From positions 1 to 38,281 of the forward strand of contig JAQWTJ010000040.1 of NCBI GenBank assembly GCA_029242765.1: DNA of 38,281 bases, in the 5' to 3' direction. Of the stretch, positions 29,347 through 36,028 are shown piece by piece. Position 1 is the stretch's first letter. Every line of letters begins with the position of its first letter. The notes below the pieces were generated by a model. It did not search any database. It worked only from the letters and a program-made list of their open reading frames with translations, and had not been told where the DNA came from. This DNA comes from Flavobacteriales bacterium. GTDB taxonomy: Bacteria > Bacteroidota > Bacteroidia > Flavobacteriales_D > Sanyastnellaceae. The position numbers and the translations under genes are program-made.

Positions 29347-29613
29347 ATGGCCACATCGAACTCCGCCCCGAACGCCCCGCAATTCGCTTTCGAACGCAAG
29401 AATTACATCGCTCTGCTAACCGGCCTGTTTCTAATCGCTTTGGGCTTCGTCTTGATGTATGGAGCCGGCTCGACCGATCCCAATGAATTTTCGGAAGACA
29501 TTTTTTCGTTCCGCCGCATTACCCTAGCACCACTTACGGTGTTGGCTGGCTACGGCGTGGTGTTTTTCGCCATCCTCAAGCGATTTCCCCCCACCGATCG
29601 CACTGAAGGGTGA
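29347..29613 (+). CDS. DUF3098 small membrane protein
   Basis: The ATG at 29347 gives 88 residues: FAFERKNYIALLTGLFLIAL, with a first span, then GFVLMYGAGSTDPNEFSEDI and FSFRRITLAPLTVLAGYGVV with a second span. This fits DUF3098, which lies between ftsX and uppP in many Bacteroidota. The same frame is open far upstream inside ftsX, but that part is out-of-frame ftsX sequence and not protein-like. Its stop overlaps the GTG start of uppP. Function unknown. Confidence 0.9.
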   Translation: MATSNSAPNAPQFAFERKNYIALLTGLFLIALGFVLMYGAGSTDPNEFSEDIFSFRRITLAPLTVLAGYGVVFFAILKRFPPTDRTEG

Positions 29614-30446
29614 GCTGGTGGGAGTCCATTCTATTGGGCCTGCTTCAGGGTCTCACTGAATTTCTGCCGGTTTCGTCGAGCGGGCATTTGGAGTTGGGCA
29701 AGGCCTTGTTCGGTATTGAGGATGGCGGCCTGATGTTCACAGTATTGGTGCATGGCGCCACCGCTTTGAGCACCGTGGTGGTCTTCCGAAAGGACATCCT
29801 AAAAATCACCGTAGACCTTTTTGCCAATTCACCCGACGGTGCTCAGGCCCGCCGCTTCACCGGCTGGATTCTGCTCTCCATGATTCCCGTGGCTGTTGTG
29901 GGCTTCACAGCGCGCGACTATTTGGAGGCCCACGCAACGGGCAACACGGCCTTGGTCGGCGCAGCACTCCTGTGCACTTCGGCCCTGCTCTGGTTCGCAC
30001 ACCGAAAGCACGCTCAATTTGCCACCCGTACGGACCAGAACGAGCATCGCTTGCTGTCCATCCGTCCGGCCGTAATGATGGGCCTGGCTCAGGCCGTAGC
30101 CGTCATTCCAGGGATTTCCCGCAGCGGCGCCACCATTTCGACCGGCCTGCTGCTCGGCCTTTCTCCTGCGACCGCCGCCCGCTTCAGCTTCCTGATGGTG
30201 CTGCCTCCGATTTTAGGGGCTACGCTATTGGAAGTCAAGGATCTTTTGGCGGCACCTGTTGTTGAAGCTTCCGGCGCCCTGATCAGCTCGCCTGCGGTGC
30301 TGGCACTGGGGGCCGCTGCGGCCTTTTTCAGTGGTCTTTGGGCCTGCAGCTGGATGATGCGCGGCTTGGTTCGCGGAGGCCTCAAAGTCTTTGCCGTGTA
30401 CTGCGCTGCGGCCGGAGCGCTTTCATTGATTGTCTCTTATGTCTAA
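29610..30446 (+). CDS. uppP: Undecaprenyl-diphosphatase
   Basis: The 278-residue membrane protein has the BacA/UppP motifs: LQGLTEFLPVSSSGHLELG near the start and VIPGISRSGATIS in the middle. It removes one phosphate from undecaprenyl diphosphate so the lipid carrier for peptidoglycan and polysaccharides can be reused, and its overproduction gives bacitracin resistance in other bacteria. It starts at a GTG overlapping the DUF3098 stop (GTGA). Confidence 0.96.
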   Translation: MSWWESILLGLLQGLTEFLPVSSSGHLELGKALFGIEDGGLMFTVLVHGATALSTVVVFRKDILKITVDLFANSPDGAQARRFTGWILLSMIPVAVVGFTARDYLEAHATGNTALVGAALLCTSALLWFAHRKHAQFATRTDQNEHRLLSIRPAVMMGLAQAVAVIPGISRSGATISTGLLLGLSPATAARFSFLMVLPPILGATLLEVKDLLAAPVVEASGALISSPAVLALGAAAAFFSGLWACSWMMRGLVRGGLKVFAVYCAAAGALSLIVSYV

Positions 30447-31005
30447 AATGTACAACCCCTCGATATCCGTTTTGCTTGCACTGGTTGTCACCGTCCTGAT
30501 GTCGGCGTGCAATGCCGCCCAGTTCACTGTGCCCATGCCGCCAAACAAGCGCGACTTAACGAAAATCCCCTTGGCCTTCCAGGGCGTATGGAGCGATGGC
30601 GAGACGACCATAACCGTGCAACAGACTACTTTTTATCACACGGACGCGGAGGAGTCCATGGAAGTGGGCCCCAATTTTCGCGTTCGAAAAATGGCCGGTC
30701 AACTCGTGCTGAGCTTTCCAGAGGACAAAGGCGCTTTGGACCGCTGGACGGTGATCCTCGCCGATGTGATCAATGGCAATTTGATCCTTCGAGAATTTGA
30801 CCCTGAAGACGAGCATGCGCTTGCCGTTTGGGAAGAGGTTCTTTTAGACCAAGGCGTTCACATCGTCAACGAGAATAACGAGACAATGATTCTCTCACCC
30901 ACAAAGAGTGAATTCAAGTCATTGATTAGGCGCGGGGCATCCACTTTTTTGGGCGAATACCACCGGGTTCCTAAGCCATCAAGCCCGCCACCTCAGTCCA
31001 ATTGA
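30439..31005 (+). CDS. Unknown lipoprotein at the end of the envelope operon
   Basis: From the ATG at 30439, which overlaps uppP by 8 bases, the protein has 188 residues; a TTG 9 bases upstream and an ATG at 30448 are alternatives. The signal ends MSAC (a lipobox-like site), followed by NAAQFTVPMPPNKRD. The mature part looks beta-rich (AFQGVWSDGETTITVQQTTFY, WTVILADVINGNLILREF) and ends in a Pro/Ser tail. I recognise no family. In many relatives truB follows uppP; here this gene takes that place. Its last 35 bases overlap the converging SOD gene. Confidence 0.72.
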   Translation: MSKMYNPSISVLLALVVTVLMSACNAAQFTVPMPPNKRDLTKIPLAFQGVWSDGETTITVQQTTFYHTDAEESMEVGPNFRVRKMAGQLVLSFPEDKGALDRWTVILADVINGNLILREFDPEDEHALAVWEEVLLDQGVHIVNENNETMILSPTKSEFKSLIRRGASTFLGEYHRVPKPSSPPPQSN

Positions 31006-31678
31006 TCCGGCGCAGCACGGCCTTGATGTAATCGCCGCGGCGGTTCTGATAGTTTAGATAGTATGCGTGCTCCCAAACGTCGATGCCGACCAGCGGCCGG
31101 CCGGTGCGCTTGACCCTGCGCTTCATCAAGGGGTTGTCTTGGTTTTCTGTGGTGCAGATAAACAGATCTTCCGGGTTCTCGTCACCTTGGCACAACCACG
31201 CCCAACCTGAACCGAACCGCGTACCAGCCGCACGAAGCAGTCGACCTTCAAGTTTTTTGAGCGAACCGAAATTGGCCTCGATGCGGTTCAGCAATAAGCC
31301 ATCAGGAGCACCGCCGCCTGGGGTGAGAATGCGCCAATACAGGCTGTGGTTGAAATGACCGCCGCCGTTTCTCCGCAGAGCCACGTCATCCGGCCCAAGA
31401 CTCATAAGCAATTGCTCCAGTGCTTGACCTTTTAAAGCGTGGCCGTCGAGCGCTTCGTTCAGTTTTCGCACGTATCCGGCGTGGTGTCGACCGTGGTGTA
31501 TGCTCATCGTCTCTGCATCGATGTCTGGGGCCAGTGCATCGAGTGCGTAACCTAGATCAGGCAACGTGAATTCATCACGATTAGCGCTCGAACACCCCAG
31601 CAAAGAAGAGACCAACGGAAAGGCGACCAATCCGGCCGAAGCAGCAGACGAAAGCTTGAGAAATTCACGTTTGTTCAT
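30971..31678 (-). CDS. Exported Fe/Mn superoxide dismutase (putative lipoprotein)
   Basis: The 235-residue protein carries the full SOD fold. The expected metal ligands are H61 (SIHHGRHHAGYV), H111 (GGGHFNHSLYW), D200 and H204 (DVWEHAYY). GGGH and the Gln in TTENQDNPL (Q180) point to the Mn or cambialistic type rather than the strict Fe type. Unlike cytoplasmic SOD it has an N-terminal signal: NKREFLK resembles a Tat motif with Lys-Arg, and SSLLGC gives a lipobox with C29. It should turn superoxide into peroxide outside the inner membrane. It diverges from the AsmA-like gene by 53 bases. Confidence 0.9.
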   Translation of the reverse strand: MNKREFLKLSSAASAGLVAFPLVSSLLGCSSANRDEFTLPDLGYALDALAPDIDAETMSIHHGRHHAGYVRKLNEALDGHALKGQALEQLLMSLGPDDVALRRNGGGHFNHSLYWRILTPGGGAPDGLLLNRIEANFGSLKKLEGRLLRAAGTRFGSGWAWLCQGDENPEDLFICTTENQDNPLMKRRVKRTGRPLVGIDVWEHAYYLNYQNRRGDYIKAVLRRINWTEVAGLMA

Positions 31679-31731: not shown

Positions 31732-34185
31732 ATGATCCGACTTGTTAAATACACCACTTTCGCACTGCTGATTTTGGTTGCAGGAGTGGTATTCTGGTGG
31801 TTTGGACCGGCGCGGCAGGGCGAAGCAGTCGTTGAGGCGGTGCTGAGCGGCGTCGAGAAGCACTTGGCCGTGGATGTCCAGGTGGGTGAGGTCTCGTGTG
31901 AGTTTTGGCGGCATTTTCCTAGCGTGGGCGTCTTGCTGGAATCGGTTCAAATTGATGACGCCTTAGCCCCCGGCCAAGCTTTTTTAGACGTGCAACAGAT
32001 GGATGTGCGTTTCAATTTGTGGGACATCATCCGGGGTGAATACGCAGCACAGCGCGTTGTAATCCAAGGCGGCACTTTGGACCTTTTATCGACCACCGAG
32101 GGGGACAACTGGCATTTTTGGAAAGACGCCGAAGGGCCGGCAAGCCCCTTTCAATTGGCCTTGCCTGATGTGCGCCTTGAAAGAGTCGAACTCACCGGCC
32201 GCTTTGTTCAAAAGGGCTCGTCGACTTCGCGATTTTCCGCTTCCGTTGGGGTGGCTACAGCTCAGCTTGAGTACACCGATGGCAGCTGGGATATCCGCGG
32301 GGGTATTGATGCGCGCTCTGTGCAATTTTTAATGGGCACGACGCAATACGTGGACTTTGACGACCTCAATGCGCACATGGCTGTTGCGTGGAACGGCCCG
32401 ACAAAAACGGTTGAAGTGTCGTTTGAGGCAGAAACCGGCGGTGTGGATTTTCAGGGGGATGTACGGCACGGGGAGGGTGATTTTGATATGAATTTGAGCG
32501 GGATAAAGACGGATTTGCAGGCGGTTCGCCCGGCCTTGCCCCCGTTCATCTTGGCCTCGTTGGAAGGGCTGGAGATGGCGGGGCTCAGCGATTTTGACGT
32601 GTCCCTATCGCAATCCACATCGGCCAATTCCATCAGCTGGGGCGTTCGCCTTGAGCCGCACATGGCTGAGGTTGCGGCTTTCGGTCAGCGGTTGGACGAA
32701 GTCAGTGGAGCATTGCGCCTGTCCCCCCAAGGGGAGCTAATCCGCATTGATTTCACAGGGGCACGTGCACGCTGGAGTGGAGGCGGCTTGACACTAAACG
32801 GGTCGTGGACAGGCTCAGAGCATTGGGGAAAACTAGACGCGGACGTGGCTTGGTCTGGCGATGTGATGGCCCTAGCCGGCGCGCTCAAATCAGCCGGCCA
32901 CGCCCAAGCTTCTTTAGACCGCATGGAAGGGGCAATTGAGTGGAAGGGGCATTTGACTGGCGTGACATCTGAAGCCGCCACGGCGGACGACTGGTCGATT
33001 GCCGGTGAGTTGGTGGCAAATCGCTTGGTTTTGGGCGAGACATTTGCGCCGCTGAGTGCCGTTTCCAATTGTAGAATCAACATCGAGGGAGACCAGATTC
33101 AGGCCCAACTTGAGGCCGAAACTCCTGGCGGCGTGTTGGACCTATTTGCAAGGGGGCCATTCAGCCGGACCGGCTGGTCGATTGTTGCGAAGGCCGATGA
33201 ACTGGACTTGGAGGCGCTTCAAAAGTCGGCGACATCTCGCAGGGCGGACAGCACGTCTGCCGGCGTGTCCAGCGGTGTAGTCGGGGCAGAGGCTTTGAGC
33301 GTCAATATTGACGTAAACATCACCCGAGCGACGCACGGTGCCCTGACACTCGAAGGCTTGGAGGCCAAGGCCGCCCTGCTTGGCGAGTCGCTGATGATTC
33401 AAGACTTTTTTGTTTCGATGTGCGGTGGATCGGTGCTGGGAAGCGCCGAATGGTCGCCACTAGACCTTACCGCGCAATTGCAGGCCTCGAACCTGGACTT
33501 GCACGCACTACTCGCACAAACCAACGGCCTAGGCCAAGACGTTGTGTCAGCGGACAATATTTATGGAACGGCGGCATTGAACGGCACGATGAATTGGAGC
33601 TCCCGACGCGCACAGGGCCACGAGCTGGAGGCTGACTTTGTGGCGACCGTTCTCAACGGCGGCTTGCAGAAATTCGAACTTCTTGCCCGCATCCCAGAGG
33701 CCATTCGAGAGCAACGGAGCATGGGCACCATTGCGGACGCAGACGATTTGCAGCGACGCCTTGCGCACGTTCGATTCGCTGAAATCACCCACCGTTTCAC
33801 TGTTGCAGAGGGGGCCATTGAATTCGCACCGGTGCACATCGTCTCGGACGCATTGGACATCGGTATTGGGGGCCGATATTCTTTTGATGGAGGGGTTGCG
33901 TACACCGTGGACTTTGCGCTGCGAGACTTGCGAGACCAGCGCTCGGAGTTCGGCGAGGTGGAGGACGATGGGTTGGGCCACCGATTCTTCTTGGGCATCG
34001 GGGGCACGGTCGATGATCCGGAATTCTGGTACGACCGCTCCGCACACAACGCCTTTCGAAAAGCGCGCCGCCAATCGATATTTTCTGGGACCAACCAATC
34101 GCCCGATGCGAAGCTTCCGCCGAAGCCAAATACCTCATTTGCAGGAGATGGGACCGACGATGAATCAGAGGATGACGATTTTTAG
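31732..34185 (+). CDS. AsmA-like large inner-membrane-anchored protein
   Basis: The 817-residue protein has a single N-terminal span (YTTFALLILVAGVVFWWFG), then a long beta-rich region starting in the AsmA manner (VEAVLSGVEKHLAVDVQVGE, LLESVQIDDALAPGQAFLDV, MDVRFNLWDIIRGEYAAQRV). The AsmA C-terminal part is seen near the end (YGTAALNGTMNWSSRR; FELLARIPEAIREQ; FTVAEGAIEFAPVHI). The end is acidic. AsmA/TamB proteins bridge inner and outer membranes and help lipid transport or outer-membrane assembly; that role is inferred from the family. A terminator lies about 25 bases after the stop. Confidence 0.85.
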   Translation: MIRLVKYTTFALLILVAGVVFWWFGPARQGEAVVEAVLSGVEKHLAVDVQVGEVSCEFWRHFPSVGVLLESVQIDDALAPGQAFLDVQQMDVRFNLWDIIRGEYAAQRVVIQGGTLDLLSTTEGDNWHFWKDAEGPASPFQLALPDVRLERVELTGRFVQKGSSTSRFSASVGVATAQLEYTDGSWDIRGGIDARSVQFLMGTTQYVDFDDLNAHMAVAWNGPTKTVEVSFEAETGGVDFQGDVRHGEGDFDMNLSGIKTDLQAVRPALPPFILASLEGLEMAGLSDFDVSLSQSTSANSISWGVRLEPHMAEVAAFGQRLDEVSGALRLSPQGELIRIDFTGARARWSGGGLTLNGSWTGSEHWGKLDADVAWSGDVMALAGALKSAGHAQASLDRMEGAIEWKGHLTGVTSEAATADDWSIAGELVANRLVLGETFAPLSAVSNCRINIEGDQIQAQLEAETPGGVLDLFARGPFSRTGWSIVAKADELDLEALQKSATSRRADSTSAGVSSGVVGAEALSVNIDVNITRATHGALTLEGLEAKAALLGESLMIQDFFVSMCGGSVLGSAEWSPLDLTAQLQASNLDLHALLAQTNGLGQDVVSADNIYGTAALNGTMNWSSRRAQGHELEADFVATVLNGGLQKFELLARIPEAIREQRSMGTIADADDLQRRLAHVRFAEITHRFTVAEGAIEFAPVHIVSDALDIGIGGRYSFDGGVAYTVDFALRDLRDQRSEFGEVEDDGLGHRFFLGIGGTVDDPEFWYDRSAHNAFRKARRQSIFSGTNQSPDAKLPPKPNTSFAGDGTDDESEDDDF

Positions 34186-34208
34186 CGCTTGAACAAGAGA
34201 CGACGATA

Positions 34209-34239
34209 CGGTCTTTCTGAAAGACCAACCGCTTTTTTT
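34209..34239 (+). terminator. Terminator after the AsmA-like gene
   Basis: A perfect 7-bp stem (34210-34216 with 34220-34226, 3-base loop), or an alternative longer stem with a bulge using CGGT and ACCG, is followed by seven T (34233-34239). Confidence 0.6.
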
Positions 34240-34244
34240 AATAG

Positions 34245-34269
34245 TTGTATGTTAATATTCCTTATCTTG
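34245..34269 (+). promoter_or_regulatory. Candidate promoter of the 34.27-34.38 kb RNA/leader
   Basis: TTG (34245-34247) is followed after 15 bases by TATCTTG (34263-34269), which is TAnnTTTG with one T missing. Both the spacing and the box are slightly off consensus. It lies right after the AsmA terminator, where new transcription must begin. Confidence 0.4.
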
Positions 34270-34270
34270 A

Positions 34271-34376
34271 GCTCCCCCGAGGTCCGCGAGGAATAGGGCA
34301 CTTAACCAGATTGACGCAGAGGCATTTTTATGCCTGTCAGAAGCCCCGGCGAAAGCCGGGGTTTTTTCGTTCTTCT
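34271..34376 (+). ncRNA. Candidate structured small RNA or leader of the histidine kinase gene
   Basis: This non-coding stretch lies between a terminator plus promoter-like site and a very strong terminator. It folds into at least two hairpins: TGAC/GTCA (34312-34315, 34336-34339) with AGGCAT/ATGCCT (34320-34325, 34330-34335), a four-base bulge on one side and a TTTT loop; and the terminator stem at 34341-34364. The 5' part (34275-34279, CCCCG) can also pair with the 3' arm of the terminator (34357-34361), which would break the terminator. It could be a free small RNA or an attenuator of the kinase gene that begins at 34397. I do not recognise it as SRP RNA, tmRNA or RNase P RNA. A 6S-like RNA of flavobacteria is possible but not shown. 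Confidence 0.5.
34341..34367 (+). terminator. Strong terminator upstream of the second histidine kinase
   Basis: A 10-bp stem (34341-34350 with 34355-34364), GC-rich with a GAAA tetraloop, runs into six T (34362-34367). It lies only 29 bases before the kinase ATG and in the same direction. Confidence 0.9.
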
Positions 34377-34396
34377 AACGGAACTTGCACCCACTA

Positions 34397-35893
34397 ATGC
34401 AACACCTTGCACATAAACAGCGGTGGAAGGTCGCTTTGTTCGCTGCAGCAGCGTTCATCGTTGGCTTGACGCTGTGGTATTCATCCACGATTGCCCGCAC
34501 ACTTCGGCACGAAGAACAGCACAAGGTTGAGCTTTGGTCTGAAGCAATTGTTCAAAGAGCTGAACTGGTCCGTTACACCGATCGCCTCTTTGATTCGCTG
34601 CGTGTTGAGGAGCGCACCAAGGCCGACTTGCTGTTTTCGGCGTACGAAATTTTCGAGCAGCTTGGGACGGACGCAAAGACCGACGTGACGATGATCATGA
34701 ACGTGATCCAAGCCAACCGAACCATCCCACTCTTGGTTACCGGCCCGGATCGTGAAATTCAATGGACGGCCAATTTGCCGCCTCACGTTGCCACGGATTC
34801 CCTGGCTCAAGACTCGTTGATTGCCGTCCTTTCTGAGCGAGGAGCAGTCATTGATATCGGTGCGGGCCGAACGTACATATACTACGATGAGAGCAAGAGA
34901 TTTCGGGAGCTACAGGCTGTAATGGCGGACTTGATTTACTCTTTCATTAGCCAGACCGTGATTAATTCGGCATCGATTCCTGTGCTGCTGGTCGACAGCA
35001 CCCACACGCGCATTTTGCGGGCCGAACGCATTGCCGCGTCTGATCTGCGTGACACGACAGCCTTGATCGCAGCGTTTTCTAAGGCCAACCCCTCGATTCC
35101 CCTCGATTTACCGTCGGCGGGCCGCCAGTACATCATGTATGACGAGTCCTTGGTCTTGAAGCAATTGAGATACTTCCCGGTCATCCAACTGTTGATCATC
35201 GGCGGTTTCCTTCTGTTTGCCTACCTCATTTTCAGCACCTTCAGGCGGGCAGAGCAGAACCGAGTGTGGGTTGGTATGGCGAAGGAAACGGCGCATCAAT
35301 TGGGCACCCCGCTCTCTGCATTGTTGGCCTGGGTTCACGTGTTGGAAGAGCAGGGCCTCGACCCGAAAGTGATCGTCGAGCTGAACAAAGATTTGGACCG
35401 CCTTCAAACGGTGACAGACCGCTTCTCAAAGATCGGCTCCGAGCCCGAGTTGCACGCTGGCGACCTCGGAGAGTTCGTCCGATCGTCGATGGGTTACATG
35501 CAGCCGCGCATGCCGCGGCGCGTGATCTTCGAGCTCGACATCGCCCCCAAGGTCTCTGCAAAATTCAGCCCTTCCCTGTACGGTTGGGTATTGGAAAACC
35601 TTGTGAAAAACGCCGTGGACGCTATGGCAGGCGAGGGCACCTTGAAGCTCCATTTGCATGTGGACGGCTCCAATGCAACGCTCGATATAAGCGACTCGGG
35701 CAAGGGCATTCCCAAGGCTCATCATCGGAGTGTGTTCGAGCCGGGCTACACCACGAAAAAGCGAGGATGGGGCCTGGGCTTGAGTTTGGTCAAGCGCATC
35801 GTCGAGCATTACCACGGCGGGAAAATTTTCGTTTTGCGTTCCGAAGAAGATTCAGGGACCACATTCCGTGTGACTTTGCCGTTGGAATCCTAG
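34397..35893 (+). CDS. Membrane sensor histidine kinase
   Basis: From the ATG at 34397 (a TTG 12 bases upstream is also in frame) the protein has 498 residues. Span 1 (about 12-32) and span 2 (about 259-281, VIQLLIIGGFLLFAYLIFS) frame an extracytoplasmic domain of about 225 residues with no motif I know. The phospho-acceptor is in KETAHQLGTPLSALLAW (H300), the form common in Bacteroidota kinases. The ATPase domain has NLVKNAVDAM, ISDSGKGIPK, VFEPGYTTKKRGWGLGLSL. No response regulator is adjacent. A strong terminator lies just before the start, and the tRNA-Leu promoter overlaps its 3' end. Confidence 0.9.
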   Translation: MQHLAHKQRWKVALFAAAAFIVGLTLWYSSTIARTLRHEEQHKVELWSEAIVQRAELVRYTDRLFDSLRVEERTKADLLFSAYEIFEQLGTDAKTDVTMIMNVIQANRTIPLLVTGPDREIQWTANLPPHVATDSLAQDSLIAVLSERGAVIDIGAGRTYIYYDESKRFRELQAVMADLIYSFISQTVINSASIPVLLVDSTHTRILRAERIAASDLRDTTALIAAFSKANPSIPLDLPSAGRQYIMYDESLVLKQLRYFPVIQLLIIGGFLLFAYLIFSTFRRAEQNRVWVGMAKETAHQLGTPLSALLAWVHVLEEQGLDPKVIVELNKDLDRLQTVTDRFSKIGSEPELHAGDLGEFVRSSMGYMQPRMPRRVIFELDIAPKVSAKFSPSLYGWVLENLVKNAVDAMAGEGTLKLHLHVDGSNATLDISDSGKGIPKAHHRSVFEPGYTTKKRGWGLGLSLVKRIVEHYHGGKIFVLRSEEDSGTTFRVTLPLES

Positions 35894-35921: not shown

Positions 35922-36003
35922 GCCCGGATGGCGGAATTGGTAGACGCGCGCGACTCAAACTCGCGTTCCGCAAGGAGTGTGGGTTCGATTCCCACTCCGG
36001 GTA
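35922..36003 (+). tRNA. tRNA-Leu (CAA)
   Basis: The acceptor arms GCCCGGA and TCCGGGT pair (one G-T), and the D-arm reads GGCGGAATTGGTAGACG, typical of tRNA-Leu. The anticodon stem is CGCGA/TCGCG with loop CTCAAAC, anticodon CAA. A long variable arm (GTTCCGCAAGGAGT) marks a class II tRNA. The discriminator is A as expected for Leu. CCA is not encoded, unlike the tRNA-Asn gene in the same window. Confidence 0.96.
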
Positions 36004-36028
36004 CACAGGTCCGCAACAGACCGCATAG

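Follow-up and report, generated by a model that had tools for sequence, protein, structure and literature searches.

A conserved putative sponge small RNA before a histidine kinase gene, and the box-terminator module of its candidate partners

The window, a stretch of 38,281 nucleotides, is one contig of a 110-contig, 2.22 Mb genome (G000 below). In it an AsmA-like gene (31732..34185, + strand; PF05170, E 2.4e-14) is the upstream, and a histidine kinase gene (34397..35893, +; PF02518, E 9.5e-25) the downstream, neighbour of the gap that is the subject here, with a tRNA-Leu (35922-36004) 3′ of the kinase gene. The Fe/Mn superoxide dismutase and BacA-family genes (30971-31678 and 29610-30446, respectively) that lie 5′ of the AsmA-like gene are ordinary. 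An Rfam scan of the window at the gathering cut-off gave two tRNAs and nothing else. The kinase was matched in 94 of 100 relatives, among them all 17 genomes of the genus (in G014 by a partial match), and its nearest named records are MAGs labelled Flavobacteriales bacterium, with one Crocinitomicaceae bacterium within the first nine. A sequence-only reading had put the gap at 199 bases, a figure that holds with TTG at 34385, the start given in the open reading frame list, as the beginning of the kinase frame; from the stop at 34185 to the ATG the count is 211. That reading also began the gap with a terminator (34210..34239, +). A hairpin can be seen there by eye and is possibly a weak terminator of the AsmA-like gene, but 38 of 200 shuffles fold equally well and the terminator scan does not report it.

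The gap seems to contain the gene for a conserved small RNA, ~98 nt long and here termed RNA A (34270..34367, +, with an inferred 5′ end), a putative sponge small RNA whose candidacy draws on its presence in 17/17 genus genomes, its fold and compensatory pairs. The promoter-like stretch that had been noticed before the non-coding part is present and is kept in relatives: the region ATGTTAATATTCCTTATCTT (34249..34268, +) contains a -7-like TATCTT at 34263-34268 and, by script, GTTAATATT occurs in 15 of the 17 relatives, always 12 bases 5′ of TA[TC]NTT, itself found in all 17. TATCTT is close to the Bacteroidota -7 element, given as TAnnTTTG in the relevant passage of one source (PMC7366714), the match being inexact. 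A sigma-70 scan did not detect the RNA A promoter, and it is through conservation in relatives that it becomes recognisable.

The roughly 100 non-coding bases with a bulged hairpin that had been described are confirmed, as ~98 bases with a second hairpin before the terminator. The bulged 5′ hairpin, P1 (34276..34298, +), is predicted by folding and has two-sided change in 9 of its 10 pairs among 17 sequences; in the window's own sequence it is short, with 3 + 3 pairs. The second, P2 (34312..34339, +), also comes from the fold, and single folds of the relatives have a hairpin in the same place, often weak and of different sequence. Between them stands the anti-box CUUAACCAGAUUG (34301..34313, +), which is near invariant (CTTAACCA-AT is invariant in alignments A1 and A2) and mostly unpaired, the mean unpaired probability over 10 bases being 0.94 in the window and 0.60-0.97 across the 17 genomes; its complement is present in the B loci dealt with below. 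The RNA closes with an intrinsic terminator, P3 (34340..34367, +), recognised by the terminator scan and by the fold and with 99.4% of cells paired in the 17 sequences. Here the GC-rich stem, the GAAA loop and the six T (34362-34367) are as first read, as is the kinase ATG, at 34397, 29 bases further on. The folding energy of 34273-34369 is -39.7 kcal/mol against a shuffle mean of -27.9 (z -3.8), better than 200/200 shuffles. Upstream of the promoter region, a conserved box, AGACGA (34198..34203, +), is exact in 15/17 genus genomes and sits 83-87 bases 5′ of the anti-box in 12 of its 15 carriers, and at -103 in the window; it may be a regulator binding site, or possibly an upstream promoter element.

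Conservation of RNA A is well supported by sequence comparison. Covariance model R1, together with reading of the loci, finds it as a single copy before the same kinase in 17/17 genus genomes, with one order of parts in all 17: promoter-like GTTAATATTnnnTATnTT (its first part exact in 15), hairpin, CTTAACCARAT, hairpin and terminator. The R1 search covered 114 family genomes, i.e. the 17 of the genus and 97 others, with stricter filters and with 30 first-look candidates scored per genome, so that a diverged copy could be missed. The sole match among the 97, in G115 (E 0.065), was rejected, as it shares little beyond the terminator and TTTAACC, and R1 run against 85 loci around kinase relatives in other genera gave one match, at E 9.2.

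In the structure-fitted alignment 91.3% of 333 cells are paired, a percentage that leans upward because the structure, including the P1 pairs, was set by hand on alignment A2 after single folds had been read and alignment A3 was then fitted to it; 14 of the 20 pairs have two-sided change, nine of them supplied by the ten P1 pairs. With partners slid by one base ~49% remain paired, and this slide control and the single folds agree with the structure. Shuffles equalled it in 0/500 cases on four measures and in 3/500 on a fifth, in a test where kin sequences can outscore shuffles even without structure. From alignment A1, made with plain MAFFT, RNAalifold recovered the terminator only. The covariation for which the sequence-only reading had looked to relatives is found, as compensatory pairs in the 17 genus sequences, and with conservation in 17/17 genomes it argues for the free RNA of about 100 bases that had been one of its two proposals.

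Partners for the anti-box were sought in the same 17 genomes, the choice of box, made on RNA A, preceding the search for its complement. The pattern TYTGGTTAAG, complementary to the first ten bases of CUUAACCARAU, has 97 sites, 17 being RNA A itself and 80 others. A reversed control pattern is commoner in the genus (221 sites), so that it is the position of the box sites, and not their number, that constitutes the evidence. Five small-RNA-like loci, B1 to B5 (19, 14, 14, 16 and 2 copies, respectively), take in 65 of the 80, with at least one in each genome; L180, labelled B1 by the script, was reassigned to ‘other’ on reading. According to the script, a terminator stands directly 3′ of the box at 60/65 B sites (18, 14, 14, 14 and 0 for B1 to B5) versus 0/15 of the remaining sites, the five failing B sites having a stem mismatch, a different loop region or, as in both B5, few T. 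Nine of the 27 distinct terminator-passing B contexts of the genus also lie inside an open frame of at least 100 codons on some strand. Rfam gave, for the scanned B regions, no match or matches far below cut-off. The window's own genome carries B1 (C107), B2 (C87), B3 (C48) and B4 (C45), and each genome sets one RNA A against one to seven exact-box B loci.

B1 lies between glutamate-dehydrogenase-like and epimerase-like genes (names from reading of translations). In five genomes (G005, G007, G009, G003 and G012; L163-L167) it occurs as tandem pairs 197-241 bases apart, and three-copy arrays of other box loci are seen in genera g6 and g2 (L277, L278 and L354). In the B1 of G013 (L146 1464-1512) the terminator hairpin looks as though its tip had been flipped: the top reads GGACGTTTCC, whereas GGAAACGTCC, its reverse complement, is usual.

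What a sponge would call for, a conserved and accessible site complementary to its candidate partners, is present throughout the genus, the anti-box being 0.60-0.97 unpaired and its complement occurring in B loci of 17/17 genomes. For G000, the RNA A box and the box of its own B1 are predicted to pair over 13 bases, with one G-U, at -14.7 kcal/mol, opening cost excluded. The B4 box is predicted to be only 16-40% unpaired. Since the boxes hardly vary, A-B pairing is of a kind that covariation cannot prove, and an A-to-G change of RNA A in G000 and G011 is answered only by a G-U pair. Against shuffles, whole-length A-B duplexes for 44 genome-matched pairs had no reliable advantage (z +1.0 to -4.8), and their energies are uninformative because each RNA's own fold is ignored.

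Judged by its distribution, the box-terminator module is old. Model R2, consisting of the box UUUGGUUAAG and a terminator, was used to search the 114 family genomes at E up to 0.01 and matches 102 of them, in 21/21 genera, with rough E-values, many of which are between 0.0001 and 0.01. Reading of 29 R2 sites took in 24 from ten other genera (21 with the exact box) and five from the genus, all of the latter with a variant box; relatives of B4 are clear in genera g3, g5, g10, g13 and g14. Six other genera were sampled with one genome apiece: of the 62 exact box sites there, 28 have a terminator next to them on the 3′ side, whereas a random control of 24,000 positions on 30 loci of the same six genomes gave 1.2%. 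An AACG terminator loop is frequent in the module. By eye, the UUUUGGUUAAGG box may also be at the 3′ ends of ordinary transcripts (L299 and L305 in g12, L327 in g2 and L331 in g6). B-type modules are also seen in genera without a detected RNA A, so it was probably not for RNA A that the box came into being.

The anti-box orientation is met with in front of some start codons. At 5 of the 62 other-genus sites the anti-box does not lie in a long frame and is followed, after 0-9 bases, by an ATG with at least 80 open codons, and four of these frames (L315, L325, L326 and L334, in g5, g12, g2 and g6, respectively) begin like one secreted repeat-protein family, homology being judged by BLASTP for L315 and L157 versus L325, and by eye on ~80 residues for L326 and L334. 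Longer members carry GCTDATACNYDP-type repeats; Pfam gave no model at cut-off for L325, L315 or L157. The family matches 113/114 genomes, with 20-25 matched stretches per genus genome, and many matches are in open frames of ~3000 residues. Thirty loci of the family, 17 of them from the genus, were read for an upstream anti-box. Seven of the 17 have one with at most two mismatches just 5′ of the start, making eight genomes with L180 included, and these eight genus loci look like one ortholog group and so are not independent. Partial anti-boxes were seen at one g16 locus and five g5 loci, the others having none or a start that could not be set.

A looser count, with the anti-box 0-10 bases before an ATG frame, gives 9/62 for the other genera and 4/52 for the genus versus 4.5% at random, so that there is no clear excess in the genus. 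The genus target search, for CTTAACCAA within 22 bases before an ATG, found 39 matches, fewer than the 50 of the reversed control, and A and B loci account for 24 of the 39. No target carrying an anti-box was seen in G000. At a further 6 of the 62 other-genus sites the anti-box is followed by a terminator (L304, L323, L320, L324, L345 and L338). At L304 and L323 the anti-box shares bases with a long frame's stop codon; the anti-boxes of L320, L324 and L345, in genera g2, g6 and g12, are intergenic and adjoin a GDPD gene. RNA A may have its counterparts in these GDPD-side sites, which could, as a guess, be separate transcripts.

The interpretation that we favour, and consider reasonably probable, is that RNA A is a stand-alone target-mimic sponge of the B siblings. 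Its own promoter and terminator would give a transcript of ~98 bases in which CUUAACCARAUUG is unpaired between two hairpins, and this box would form a 10-13 base duplex with UUUGGUUAAG, the sequence that immediately precedes the terminator in the otherwise unrelated B1-B5 RNAs. The B loci, presumably transcribed, would most likely use UUUGGUUAAG as a seed against CUUAACCAAA-type sites at the start codons of mRNAs for large secreted repeat proteins, an action likened to that of FopS on susC mRNAs in Bacteroides. With a near-invariant, mostly unpaired box that complements their shared box, RNA A most likely soaks up the B RNAs; by titrating or destabilising them, it would relieve repression and free the messages. 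More tentatively, and with rather less confidence, a family-wide 3′ ‘code’ can be envisaged, in which UUUGGUUAAG and a terminator, often with an AACG loop, mark unrelated regulatory RNAs and genera have evolved or kept an anti-code RNA of their own (RNA A, or the GDPD-side RNA in three genera), so that one switch would free the mRNAs of large surface proteins.

A module common to RNAs with unrelated 5′ parts, which may by eye end some mRNAs in other genera and in which the AACG terminator loop is frequent too, could also function at RNA 3′ ends chiefly in protein binding or stability, with RNA A masking UUUGGUUAAG or competing for it. This is unlikely, as by itself it leaves unexplained why anti-boxes stand at the start codons of one protein family. 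Reversal of the direction of control, with RNA A as the effector, CUUAACCAAAUU as its seed and the B RNAs as redundant decoys that titrate it, would account for the one to seven exact-box B loci per RNA A, as expected of multi-copy decoys. We regard it as quite improbable, however, given that B-type modules are in 102/114 family genomes and RNA A in the genus alone, and that anti-boxes were found before start codons of one protein family in a start-codon search made in the anti-box orientation.

The sequence-only reading's other proposal, that RNA A attenuates the kinase in cis, an alternative fold relieving termination at P3, we consider very improbable. Between terminator and kinase ATG the window has 29 bases, in which a separate promoter would not obviously fit, and the CCCCG:CGGGG pairing on which the proposal leaned does exist, but its score is reached by 98 of 200 shuffles and it is not conserved in relatives. 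For pairing of the RNA before P3 with the P3 3′ arm, the number of shuffles, out of 200, that do as well ranges from 88 to 200 across the 17 genomes, so that in none of them is the pairing above shuffles (the arm was taken as 4-7 bases in seven genomes and in full in ten, G000 included); there is thus no conserved antiterminator pairing of the type that an attenuator or riboswitch would have. From the terminator to the first aligned kinase residue there are 71-129 bases in 15/17 genomes, and reading of the sequences places a promoter-like ATACCTT in this interval in 10/17. In G000 and its nearest relative, G011, the distance is 29 and 58 bases, respectively, and the motif is missing, so that in these two the kinase may be reached by read-through. 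Further, the anti-box has candidate partners in trans. Least credible of all is that RNA A represents the genus's own diverged version of 6S RNA, an idea that could draw on the lack of a 6S-Flavo match in the 17 genus genomes and 100 relatives, where absence is not established since control genomes were silent or below cut-off, and that is opposed both by the RNA's shape of hairpin, open box, hairpin and terminator, in place of the closed rod with a central bubble that is 6S RNA, and by a permissive Rfam scan of the gap (34180-34420, E up to 10), whose ten matches, none near cut-off and most on the terminator, do not include the 6S-Flavo model (RF01685) that had been suggested as a candidate.

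The favoured sponge interpretation bears on known systems in several ways. It is chiefly in gut Bacteroides that small-RNA networks of Bacteroidota have, to our knowledge, been described. In Bacteroides thetaiotaomicron, FopS and GibS are described, in passages of one report, as multi-copy siblings that repress surface-protein mRNAs via a shared seed near the start codon; FopS, of ~65-70 nt, has its seed in an open 5′ part and is bound by its protein antagonist, the RRM protein RbpB, and its consensus, with the R1 seed in the 5′ part, has been deposited in Rfam (PMC11697453). Like them, the B RNAs would be multi-copy siblings in Bacteroidota for which a shared seed acting near start codons is proposed. 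Unlike FopS as described in those passages, they have the box directly 5′ of the terminator and unrelated 5′ parts, and the antagonist proposed is an RNA. Neither RNA A nor the scanned B regions matched FopS in the Rfam copy used, which may lack a FopS model. A search for Hfq had no hit in the 17 genus genomes, with the control detected in five of 14 known genomes; Bacteroides has no obvious Hfq or ProQ according to a passage of a source that elsewhere mentions small-RNA sponges in general terms (PMC7366714). Among the open-licence papers searched, literature on sponge RNAs in Bacteroidetes or Flavobacteri yielded general mention only, and the open-licence matches listed gave no description of RNA A or of the box.

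RNA A matches no Rfam family at the gathering cut-off. With 6S-Flavo (108 model positions) it has in common that it would be a small stand-alone RNA, and it differs in shape and in having no match in the permissive cmscan. Another parallel is with bacterial sponge RNAs. SroC, for example, acts as a sponge for GcvB, relieving repression by base pairing with this small RNA, and RNA A would likewise pair with small RNAs and relieve the repression that they exert. The system is directly testable as a set, comprising RNA A, the four B loci of its own genome and, as candidate targets, a defined class of surface-protein mRNAs. In contrast to sponges of the SroC type, RNA A appears to be equipped with a promoter and terminator of its own, and it would act on several siblings through a 3′ box that they share; a 3′ module shared by many small RNAs, together with anti-module RNAs, would differ in wiring from the arrangement of one small RNA and one sponge.
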